Assembly: GCA_018062205.1 (NCBI GenBank)
Contig: JAGOSP010000010.1
Span: 1-40,539, forward strand
Reading direction: 5' to 3'
DNA from: Candidatus Moraniibacteriota bacterium
GTDB lineage: Bacteria > Patescibacteriota > Minisyncoccia > Moranbacterales > UBA1568
Length of the DNA: 40,539 bases
This document shows positions 4,269 through 12,373 of this stretch, in pieces. Both the position numbers and the translations under genes were made by a program. The notes beneath the pieces were generated by a model that had not been told where the DNA came from, ran no database searches, and worked only from the letters and a program-made list of their open reading frames with translations. Position 1 is the stretch's first letter; each line of letters begins with the position of its first letter.

Positions 4269-5852
4269 CTAGAGATCGTTTCCTGAATACGACAGGTCAA
4301 AGCTTTTATTAATGAGTGGGAAGTCCGGAACAATATCACGGGTGAGCGCATGTGGTACCACTTGCCAATTAATGAAGGATGGATCGCGCACCTTGACCCG
4401 ATCGAGCTTGCCGTTCGACCCTGTTGCAACAAAAGTCACGATATCCCCACGCCAGCCCTCAACCATGCCTAAGGCCATACGATTTGCCGGAAGCGCTCCA
4501 AGCGGAGTCTTAAGTGATGAGTTTTCAAAAGGAAGCAATGCCAACACCTGATTGAGAATACGAAATGACTGATAAACTTCTTTGATACGAACCAGAAAAC
4601 GAGCATGCACATCACCATACTCTTCAGTAGCAACAGCAAATTGCACTGCCTCATAGGCTGCATACGGAAAATCCACTCGTGCATCCATCGCTTTCCCAAG
4701 GGCCCGAGCGGGTACCCCGACTACACCGTAATCATCCGCAATCTGCTTCTCAAGACGACCTGTTTCTTTTAATCGGTTGTACAATGAATCAGAATCTTTG
4801 GCAATGGTAATAACTTCCTTGAAATCAGTCTCTAGTAACTCAAGATCATCTGCCAAGTCATCTGCCAAGGTTTCTTCGATATCACGATTCACACCACCAA
4901 AGATAATCATCCCTCGCAGAAAACGACTCCCAGAAATACGCTCATTCCACTGCATGATACGCTCACGCAAGCGTGCGCCATGACTCCCGCCAAAAGAGAA
5001 TCCCGTATCCAGCATGATGAATCCAATATCATTGAAATGATTTGCTAACCGTTCGAGTTCCGCACACACCATACGAATCAGCTTGGCTCGCTCCGGAAGG
5101 ACTCCTTCAGACAATGTCTCTACGGCCTGAGTAAAAGCAAGTGCGTGATGTACAGAACTGTCCCCTGAAATATGCTCTGCCAAAGACAATGTTTTTTCAA
5201 GAGGGAGTGTTTCAAAAAGTTTCTCTGTTCCCTTGTGAACATACCCGAGCTCTGCCTCAAACTTGATGATTTCTTCCCCCAAGACACTGAAACGAAAATG
5301 TCCCGGTTCAATAATACCCGCGTGTACCGGTCCCACTGGAATTTGATAAATACCCTCCCCAAGAACCCCCTGAACCTCGGTAATTGTGTCTTCTGTTTGC
5401 AATGGAAATGAGGTATTCCAGGCGAAATCCTTGCGAAGTGGATAGAGATCTTTTGGATAATGCTGATGGAGAATAATACGAGATGGGTTTGGATGGCCAA
5501 CCGGTTCAAGTCCAAAAAAACTTTTTATCTCTTGCTCATACAAAGCGAAAGCTTGATTCACTGAAACCAGGGACGGAAAAGTAGCCGTCATAGAAGGCAC
5601 CGATAGCTCCACGGCAAAGAACACCGCTTCTTTGGGAACGGCAAAAATATATCGGATGAAAAAACGCTGGTGAGTTCGGCGTTCGTCGGTCGCCACCACT
5701 GTCTTTAATTCAAGATGCTGTTCTTCAAGTAAACTTTTCACAGCTGGTATCAGATCTTTTTCTGGTACCAAAACAATCAACATATTTGATTCTTTTCGAG
5801 ACGAGAATCGTTCGAATCCAAAGCGAGAAAGAAGTGGGTGTGTGTCATGCAT
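4269..5852 (-). CDS. Hydrogenase-like large subunit (NuoCD/HyfG-like, Ehr type) lacking NiFe cysteines
   Basis: This encodes 527 residues: a NuoC-like 30-kDa domain (about 24-150) fused to a NuoD/hydrogenase-large-subunit domain (about 170-527), the HycE/HyfG layout. Family landmarks include PVGPVHAGIIEPGHFRF and GYVHKGTEKL. In true group 4 hydrogenases the next motif is RxCGxC; here the aligned residues are HISGDS (227-232), so both Cys are Ser. The C-terminal DPCxxC motif is DPSFIN (490-495), so both remaining nickel ligands are Ser and Asn. NiFe binding is therefore not expected. SGDS in place of CGxC is known for Ehr (energy-converting hydrogenase-related) complexes, which sit between hydrogenases and complex I. 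No C-terminal maturation-peptide signature is evident. Last gene of the operon, 18 bases after its neighbour. Confidence 0.93.
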   Translation of the reverse strand: MHDTHPLLSRFGFERFSSRKESNMLIVLVPEKDLIPAVKSLLEEQHLELKTVVATDERRTHQRFFIRYIFAVPKEAVFFAVELSVPSMTATFPSLVSVNQAFALYEQEIKSFFGLEPVGHPNPSRIILHQHYPKDLYPLRKDFAWNTSFPLQTEDTITEVQGVLGEGIYQIPVGPVHAGIIEPGHFRFSVLGEEIIKFEAELGYVHKGTEKLFETLPLEKTLSLAEHISGDSSVHHALAFTQAVETLSEGVLPERAKLIRMVCAELERLANHFNDIGFIMLDTGFSFGGSHGARLRERIMQWNERISGSRFLRGMIIFGGVNRDIEETLADDLADDLELLETDFKEVITIAKDSDSLYNRLKETGRLEKQIADDYGVVGVPARALGKAMDARVDFPYAAYEAVQFAVATEEYGDVHARFLVRIKEVYQSFRILNQVLALLPFENSSLKTPLGALPANRMALGMVEGWRGDIVTFVATGSNGKLDRVKVRDPSFINWQVVPHALTRDIVPDFPLINKSFDLSYSGNDL

Positions 5853-11050: not shown

Positions 11051-11614
11051 TCAATGATGAGGATGATCGGTATCGTCTGATTCTTTCTGCTTTTCAGACT
11101 GCTCCAAATCATGAAACAAACCTAGAAGTGACATCAAAATTTGTCGCGGTGAAGGAGGATCCCCAGGAATGCCAAAATCTACTGGGATAATATCAGAGAC
11201 TTGATTGACAACTGCATAGGAATCTTTAAAAACACTCCCTTGAATAGCGCCATCGCCAAGAGCAACAACCAAACAGGGTTTCGGCATGGCTTCGTATGTA
11301 TGCCGTAAGCCCTGAATCATGTTTCGAGAGACCGGCCCAGAAACAAAAAGTGCATCTGCATGCCGAGGAGAAGCAACAAAACGAATACCAAAACGCTCAA
11401 TATCATAGTAGACATTTCCCAGCGCCGTAAGCTCTTGTTCTTCGGCGTTCGATGAGCCGGCAGCGACACTCCGAATAGCAAACGACCCACCGAAAAGTCT
11501 TTTCACGGAAGCAGATACTTTTTCACCTACAACCTCGAATGGAGCGTCTGTCAATTCTTCAAAAGACAAAGCGAGGCGGGGAGTTTTTCGGATTTTATTC
11601 AGCATTTGAAACAT
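11051..11614 (-). CDS. Hydrogenase small-subunit-like protein (NuoB/HycG-like, Ehr type) without iron-sulphur ligands
   Basis: This encodes 187 residues, first gene of the operon. The NuoB/HycG fold is clear from YYDIERFGIRFVASPRHAD, LFVSGPVSRNM, VVALGD, VFKDSYAV and IPGDPPSPRQIL. In the family the cluster is held by GSCNGCE, GDC and GCPP. Here these read GSSNAEE (53-59), GDG (120-122) and GDPP (151-154). All four ligands are replaced (Ser55, Glu58, Gly122, Asp152). The only Cys is 114, at a non-ligand position. Known Ehr complexes lose the nickel site; loss of the proximal [4Fe-4S] cluster too is unexpected to me. The fold-defining residues around each lost Cys are conserved, so the protein is unlikely to be decaying. 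A His-rich acidic tail (DDTDHPHH) ends it. The start may be 11605 instead. Confidence 0.92.
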   Translation of the reverse strand: MFQMLNKIRKTPRLALSFEELTDAPFEVVGEKVSASVKRLFGGSFAIRSVAAGSSNAEEQELTALGNVYYDIERFGIRFVASPRHADALFVSGPVSRNMIQGLRHTYEAMPKPCLVVALGDGAIQGSVFKDSYAVVNQVSDIIPVDFGIPGDPPSPRQILMSLLGLFHDLEQSEKQKESDDTDHPHH

Positions 11615-11767: not shown

Positions 11768-12373
11768 TTACGCTACCGACTGTCGCTCCTTCCAGATATG
11801 CCATACGGCCGGGAGAAAAGAAATAACAATGATCGCAAGAATGACTGGCAGTAAATACCGATCAACATCTGTAATGAGGTTTCCAAAAAGATACCCTCCC
11901 GAAGTTAATCCAACCGTCCAAAGAACAGCACCAAGGATGTTGTATGTTAAAAAACTCCGATAATTCATCCCCGCAATACCAGCCACAATTGGTCCAAAAG
12001 TTCGTACAATCGGAATAAAACGAGCTAGCATAATTGTCTTTGCCCCATGTTTTTCATAAAAGGATTGTGCTCGCCGTACATGTGCCTTGTGAAAGAAAAA
12101 TGAATCATCACGTTCAAAAAGTTTTGGGCCAACTTTTTTCCCAAACCAATATCCAACCATATTTCCTGTGATGGCCGCAACCAAAAGCACAACTATCAAA
12201 ATCGGCAATACAAACAATCCTTGCGCGGCAAGCAAACCAGCAACAAAAAGCAAGCTATCTCCAGGAAGAAAAAATCCAAGGAAAAGCCCTGTTTCAGCAA
12301 AGACAATAAAAAACAATCCGATCAGCCCCACTGTCTGAATAAGTTCTCCCAAATCAACACCAAAATAATGCAT
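11768..12373 (-). CDS. DedA family membrane protein
   Basis: This encodes 201 residues of the DedA/VTT (SNARE-associated) family. Landmarks are FAETGLFLGFFLPGDSLLF (acidic Glu27 and Gly38-Asp39) and RFIPIVRTFGPIVAG, the conserved Arg- and Pro-containing motif in the second re-entrant loop. It has about five hydrophobic segments and a basic C-terminus. DedA proteins act in the cytoplasmic membrane; several have been shown to flip phospholipids or undecaprenyl phosphate and to depend on proton motive force. That would suit the glycan genes later in the window, but the link is inferred. The gene is 27 bases downstream of the adaptor gene, with no clear SD, so it probably shares that transcript. 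Confidence 0.93.
   Translation of the reverse strand: MHYFGVDLGELIQTVGLIGLFFIVFAETGLFLGFFLPGDSLLFVAGLLAAQGLFVLPILIVVLLVAAITGNMVGYWFGKKVGPKLFERDDSFFFHKAHVRRAQSFYEKHGAKTIMLARFIPIVRTFGPIVAGIAGMNYRSFLTYNILGAVLWTVGLTSGGYLFGNLITDVDRYLLPVILAIIVISFLPAVWHIWKERQSVA

Follow-up and report, generated by a model that had tools for sequence, protein, structure and literature searches.

Ehr complexes, which are encoded by hydrogenase-4/complex-I-like membrane operons with a large subunit devoid of NiFe ligands, have either been called proteins of unknown function or been suggested to have formate-linked redox roles (PMC6349859, PMC7894505, PMC10284858, PMC10432482). The absence of the NiFe ligands from the Ehr of CPR bacteria (Patescibacteria, the phylum of the window) has already been reported by Jaffe and colleagues (PMC7304191); the main text of that report (as distinct from its supplements and from the founding Ehr papers) makes no mention of Ehr iron-sulfur ligands, ATP synthase or carbonic anhydrase. 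Retention of the small-subunit [4Fe-4S] ligands is usual in Ehr, does not figure among the defining features named in the literature covered, and is not seen in the locus described here. Ehr complexes are widespread, and the loss of this cluster bears on what they do. It also touches a broader issue, as there is continuing debate over how redox chemistry in complex I drives ion pumping at a distance, and a family with a full membrane arm and cap and no redox centres would set transport apart from electron transfer.

The locus lies in the window, by which we mean the whole 40,539-nucleotide stretch analysed (contig JAGOSP010000010.1, Candidatus Moraniibacteriota bacterium). A tightly packed operon of six genes occupies its positions 11614 to 4269 on the minus strand, in the order small subunit, HyfB/NuoL-like, HyfC/NuoH-like, HyfE-like, HyfF/NuoM-like and, as the last gene, large subunit (Table 1); no ferredoxin-type gene was found within it. 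Overall, it appears to represent a known family, Ehr, in a CPR variant that has lost all of its redox cofactors and that in relatives stands amid ion- and CO2-related genes.

Table 1. Positions in the window of the Ehr operon products, of the former NiFe ligand motifs and of the adjoining gene
Feature	Position	Strand	Basis
Large subunit EhrL (NuoCD/HycE/HyfG-like), 527 aa	4269..5852	minus	Pfam and alignment with HycE/HyfG/NuoCD
Former CGxC, now SGDS (residues 229-232)	5157..5168	minus	Alignment
Former DPCxxC, now DLSYSG (residues 519-524)	4281..4298	minus	Alignment with HycE/HyfG DPCYSC
HyfF/NuoM-like antiporter-like membrane subunit, 485 aa	5871..7328	minus	Proton_antipo_M 2.6e-51
HyfE-like membrane subunit, 227 aa	7339..8022	minus	Pfam Oxidored_q2 2.9e-06
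HyfC/NuoH-like membrane subunit, 336 aa	7988..8998	minus	Pfam NADHdh 4.9e-37
HyfB/NuoL-like antiporter-like membrane subunit, 694 aa	8970..11054	minus	Proton_antipo_M 4.5e-57
Small subunit EhrS (NuoB/HycG-like), 187 aa	11051..11614	minus	Pfam Oxidored_q6 8.1e-21
DedA/VTT-family membrane protein, directly upstream of the operon	11768..12373	minus	Pfam VTT_dom 4.2e-19

The EhrL frame runs from an ATG at 5852 to a stop at 4269, the plus strand of the same span being riddled with stops, and its Pfam matches (Complex1_30kDa, 6.8e-17; Complex1_49kDa, 1.5e-45) are those of a NuoCD/HycE-type fusion; it is thus a real hydrogenase-type large subunit, as a preliminary description of the sequence had proposed. 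The alignment with E. coli HycE (PDB 7z0s chain E) and HyfG, used as the reference for the ligand positions, pairs 'EHISGDSS' with 'DRVCGICG' and 'SFDLSYSGND' with 'SLDPCYSCTD', placing S229, S232, S521 and G524 at the four NiFe cysteines of group 4 [NiFe] hydrogenases. The earlier assertions that all four ligands are replaced and that CGxC reads SGDS at residues 229-232 were therefore correct, and the cysteines whose presence at these positions would have spoken against them are lacking in the alignment with HycE, HyfG and NuoCD. The counterpart of DPCxxC had been misplaced: the segment chosen, DPSFIN (490-495), is a separate conserved one that matches 'RTPSF' of NuoD and 'RAATYANW' of HycE, the ligand motif being DLSYSG at 519-524. 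A C-terminal maturation extension is absent, as EhrL stops at NDL, no more than three residues past this motif.

The SGD and LSYSG-type motifs recur in some 100 homologues, which come from CPR, Actinobacteria, Proteobacteria, Nitrospira and one archaeon (SGD is kept across Ehr at the former CGxC, the fourth residue being variable), and none of the Ehr large subunits that could be read at the ligand positions has NiFe ligands. As the motifs are so widely shared and the true hydrogenases in the same alignment (L121-L123, L181, L183, HycE and HyfG) keep all four cysteines, the substitutions in EhrL are due neither to chance nor to error. What is left at the old NiFe site is a conserved polar pocket, in which HAGIIEPGHFRF, SGD and NKS..LSY.G.D are invariant or nearly so.

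The core of EhrS could be aligned with MbhJ (PDB alignment), HycG, HyfI, NuoB and Ehr homologues, and it has lost its cofactor ligands as well. All four [4Fe-4S] positions are replaced (S55, E58, G122 and D152, within GSSNAEE, LGDGA and PGDPP), giving SEGD against CCCC in HycG, HyfI and NuoB; the proximal [4Fe-4S] ligands of group 4 [NiFe] hydrogenases are accordingly absent. Together, the six operon proteins contain nine cysteines, none of them at a ligand position.

The distribution of this loss was assessed in relatives from the same phylum, in plasmids and in 80 loci of named genomes; the viral contigs searched yielded no relative of the Ehr operon. Each of the 27 fully readable CPR small subunits, the window's included, has lost at least three ligands, with none retained in 20 and the second cysteine only in the other 7; the residues found at the four positions vary (S/T/D, E/C/A/T/I, G/D/F/K and D/N). 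The loss is not universal in CPR, as a single further member, L257, keeps all four. Outside CPR the four ligands are retained in 62 of 67 small subunits; of the other five, four lack a single ligand (three Cryobacterium, one Rokubacteria) and the fifth, from Microbacteriaceae, lacks three. The Microbacteriaceae Ehr at L154, L155, L158 and L164 lack one to three of the four, a loss apparently separate from that in CPR and perhaps ongoing, and on this account the cluster seems to have become dispensable more than once. If such losses did recur, the core task of Ehr may be something other than electron transfer. A side observation concerns L259, L260 and L261, which come from genomes with a genetic code of the code 25 type, in which TGA encodes an amino acid; translated with TGA as glycine, their EhrS lack all four ligands.

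In a maximum-likelihood tree of 80 large subunits, an analysis that the preliminary description had called for, the window sequence clusters with other CPR Ehr, and Ehr as a whole form one branch (support 100/95, with L181 and L183 outside) separate from HycE/HyfG and from group 4 hydrogenases. The two Firmicutes sequences nearest to this branch, L181 and L183, still have all four cysteines of the NiFe site, and their operons include a ferredoxin-type gene; they may represent a transitional form on the way from group 4 hydrogenases to Ehr. The cluster-less CPR Ehr fall into three groups in the tree, and a single-clade constraint was not rejected (p-AU 0.46), so that the cluster may have been lost in CPR either once or several times. 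Comparison with a genome of the same genus gave dN/dS values of 0.04-0.07, around 0.05 (approximate, for the genes with estimable dS, which is near saturation); together with the intact membrane-arm residues described below, this makes decay unlikely. Assembly error or decay as the source of the missing cysteines was likewise rejected on the grounds that the same losses occur in many genomes, that dN/dS is about 0.05 and that another hydrogenase of the same genome has its cysteines intact. The locus does not encode a hydrogenase, and the ligand loss in the large subunit is a trait of the family across CPR, Actinobacteria, Proteobacteria and Nitrospira and not decay, all of which agrees with the initial reading. 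Its assignment to an Ehr-type complex stands as far as the branch is concerned; it had overlooked the ligand loss in the small subunit, which makes the complex a derived variant and not an ordinary Ehr.

The membrane arm presents the opposite picture of conservation, the ion-translocation residues of complex I being present throughout it (residue census). The HyfB/NuoL-like subunit (NCBIfam hydrogenase 4 subunit B, 2.3e-184) keeps E154, K237, K268, H362 and E421; the HyfF/NuoM-like subunit has E135, K222, H336 and K395; and the HyfC/NuoH-like subunit keeps R45, E160, D219 and E226, with A222 and H224 at the positions of NuoH E216 and E218, as in other Ehr. K395 is a lysine in place of the usual Ehr glutamate at the NuoM E407 position, and is shared by 6 of 22 CPR relatives. 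The HyfE-like subunit matches the NCBIfam hydrogenase 4 membrane subunit model at 1.2e-18, under that model's cut-off. Among CPR members, the key Glu, Lys and His of the antiporter-like subunits and the Arg, Glu and Asp of the NuoH-like subunit are invariant or nearly so.

The rest of the source genome (0.97 Mb, 97% complete) was searched by tblastn over stretches spanning essentially all of it. No homologue of NuoE, NuoF, NuoG, NuoI, HycB or HycF was found, and the genome thus lacks the NADH-oxidising module and the NuoI clusters of a complex I. Genes for HypC, HypD, HypE and HypF, as expected for a group 4 hydrogenase, were detected in this search, HypA and HypB were not. Hyp genes in combination with a C-terminal maturation peptide had been named as evidence that would overturn the initial reading; only the genes materialized, EhrL having no such peptide, and their presence is accounted for by a second NiFe hydrogenase of the same genome, which is intact. 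This second locus (L079:10060-11910, plus strand, and L078:888-5358, on contig C13 of G000, hypC, D, E and F lying at a distance of about 25 kb) encodes a short small subunit (171 aa) and a large subunit that carries RICGTC and DPCMSC. Such a hydrogenase was found in the genus (G000, G002 and G003) and is missing from many other Ehr-bearing relatives, which makes it a weak candidate for an electron partner of Ehr. The genome also has homologues of SufB, SufC, SufD and SufS, ruling out a general inability to assemble iron-sulfur clusters. As the other hydrogenase keeps its cysteines and SUF genes are present, the losses in Ehr are due neither to sequencing error nor to such an inability. Genes for an F1Fo ATP synthase are located on contig C3, not adjoining Ehr; the c subunit, read by eye, lacks the Na+ motif, and protons are therefore the likely coupling ion. 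No carbonic anhydrase was found in the genome, either by a Pro_CA search or by searches with profiles of carbonic anhydrase (CA)-like families, and two candidates, L031 and L047, were ruled out by Pfam. The CA-like partner gene typical of DAB, or vectorial carbonic anhydrase, systems was found neither among the operon neighbours nor in the Pro_CA search of the genome (DabA lay outside the search).

In CPR relatives the gene neighbourhood of Ehr includes ion- and CO2-related genes. Eight CPR genomes have ATP synthase genes adjacent to or enclosing the Ehr operon, and the arrangements differ: atpA-G-D-C lies upstream of Ehr in L022, L026, L118 and, as far as the contig reaches, L025; Ehr sits between atpG and atpD in L256; it lies inside the atp operon on the opposite strand in L197/L114; and the ATP synthase genes are convergent with or opposite to Ehr in L117 and L194. 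Among the contigs of named genomes and the plasmids, ATP synthase was seen near Ehr only at the two CPR loci. An NhaP-type Na+/H+ exchanger and a DedA gene are found upstream of Ehr in L017-L019, all three of which belong to the same family as the window; the window shares the DedA gene, which adjoins Ehr in L015-L019 (a synteny that indicates association only).

A CA-like gene adjoins Ehr in 10 CPR genomes, with three families represented. CsoSCA-like neighbours (profile E 1.2e-10; Pfam above cut-off for two members) occur in L023 (2589-3644, plus), L024 (7194-8297, minus) and L117 (14915-16597, plus), and carry CxDGR and H-x9-C motifs. A homologue of the cadmium carbonic anhydrase CDCA (E 3.7e-7 to the solved enzyme) is encoded within the ATP synthase/Ehr cluster of Candidatus Daviesbacteria (L114:8631-9368, minus, the same gene as L197:3367-4104, minus). 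The third family, which we call HxPC for its C-x-D-G and H-x-P-C motifs, lies beside Ehr in L022 (a short copy), L026 (5-622), L110 (9840-10442), L118 (9981-10781), L256 (1346-1972) and L257 (790-1350 and 1323-1985), all those with coordinates being on the minus strand. It is divergent and without a Pfam match, its Cys, GG and HxPC being invariant; in hhalign comparisons it weakly resembles beta carbonic anhydrases (5e-4 and 8e-3 against E. coli Can and CynT; controls 0.09-0.14). The neighbours L115_up1, L116_up1 and L113_up1 bear no resemblance to carbonic anhydrases. Co-occurrence with Ehr gave hypergeometric P values of 0.003 for HxPC and 0.015 for the CsoSCA-like family, both uncorrected for phylogeny; these CA-like families are rare and are found in genomes without Ehr, too. 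A link to CO2 or bicarbonate is thus suggested in relatives, and none was seen in the window's genome. Adjacency of this kind is no proof of joint function, synteny being inherited among related genomes.

Neither of the redox cofactors known from the large and small subunits, namely the NiFe site and the proximal/N2-type [4Fe-4S] cluster, has kept its ligands, and the complex appears, judging by its sequence, to be free of redox cofactors and yet functional. With both cofactors gone and no subunit for electron input, electrons are unlikely to pass through it. With the ion-conducting arm and the polar pocket conserved, we propose that this Ehr-derived six-subunit complex is a redox-independent secondary transporter coupled to an ion gradient, a reading that we hold to be probable without regarding it as secure. 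The remaining parts, two NuoL/M-like antiporter subunits, a HyfE-like and a NuoH-like one, would be capped by the cofactor-free large/small pair acting as a gate or coupling element. The F1Fo ATPase, with its proton-type c subunit, would set up a gradient, down which protons would flow through the complex, and this flow would be coupled via the antiporter-like channels to the movement of another ion or, alternatively, to chemistry in or beside the polar pocket. That the subunits assemble and transport at all, which ions are involved and how they are coupled is what we infer. To our knowledge, most CPR bacteria lack a respiratory chain; an energy-linked function is hereby proposed for them, whose ties to the neighbouring ATP synthase and carbonic-anhydrase-like genes can be tested, and the CPR variant makes a redox-free function of Ehr directly testable.

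The same data can be read in other ways. Were the complex to energise a CA-like partner by the proton-motive force, in the manner of DabB acting on DabA or NDH-1MS on CupA, CO2 would be trapped as bicarbonate without electrons. The three CA-like families beside Ehr in relatives, their above-chance co-occurrence with it and the precedent of DAB2, in which a NuoL-like subunit drives a CA-like one without electrons (PMC13144422), are consistent with such a module; yet the window has no CA-like gene beside its operon, none was found elsewhere in its genome by the Pro_CA and profile searches (one weak match was rejected), the families are not confined to Ehr-bearing genomes, the CA-adjacent complex of L257 retains its iron-sulfur ligands, and the tie of HxPC to carbonic anhydrases is weak. 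We consider this explanation unlikely, and still less likely its extended form, in which a hydrogenase-descended, electron-free and proton-gradient-driven complex for CO2 hydration or bicarbonate, organised with the CPR ATP synthase and any CA-like partner, would constitute a third independent type beside DAB and NDH-1MS.

Quite improbable, too, is a redox enzyme in a new guise, which may carry an unconventional cluster (e.g. Ser/Asp/Glu-ligated) or bind a substrate in the old NiFe/quinone pocket, and may receive electrons from a diffusible partner, for instance the other NiFe hydrogenase of this genome. The pocket motifs do persist despite the cluster loss, and coupling to formate dehydrogenase has been proposed for other Ehr (PMC6349859). 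An alternative ligand set would, however, be expected to be conserved, whereas the EhrS positions vary in CPR; moreover, no electron-input subunit is encoded with the operon, and many Ehr-bearing relatives do not have the hydrogenase. As for a decaying or purely structural relic that no longer transports, decay would start with the loss of catalytic centres, just as seen here, but the low dN/dS where it could be estimated, the intact frames and membrane-arm residues and a gene order conserved across families render it extremely improbable.

When the proposed transporter is set beside known systems, the closest are the Ehr of Actinobacteria, Rhizobium, Cupriavidus and Nitrospira (Geobacter Ehr lay outside the comparison), which have six subunits and the large-subunit SGD and NLSYxG as in the window. 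The small-first order S-B-C-E-F-G is that of actinobacterial, rokubacterial and chloroflexal Ehr; the difference lies in the [4Fe-4S] ligands of EhrS, kept by nearly all non-CPR members (62/67) and missing here. The large, small and membrane subunits are also homologous to those of E. coli hydrogenase 4 and formate hydrogenlyase (HyfA-J, HycB-G) and of group 4 [NiFe] hydrogenases in general, from which the window complex differs in lacking the NiFe ligands, the small-subunit cluster ligands and the maturation peptide and, relative to the two E. coli enzymes, the ferredoxin subunits HycB/F or HyfA/H. DAB2/MpsAB offers the case of a NuoL-like subunit working without electrons (PMC13144422), and the window's relatives have CA-like neighbours; the window complex has many more subunits, is descended from a hydrogenase and has no CA-like gene in its operon, and the neighbours in relatives are CsoSCA-, CDCA- or HxPC-like (in searches that did not extend to DabA). 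Respiratory complex I (Nuo/Nqo) shares homology in NuoB, NuoCD, NuoH and NuoL/M, with the ion-translocation residues conserved in the window; on the other hand, its NADH module and NuoI have no counterpart here, and NuoB keeps the N2 ligands that EhrS has lost. Mrp-type cation/H+ antiporters combine antiporter-like NuoL/M-type subunits with the absence of redox centres, and relative to them (Mrp E, F and G were outside the search) the window complex retains a NuoH-like subunit and the large/small cap.
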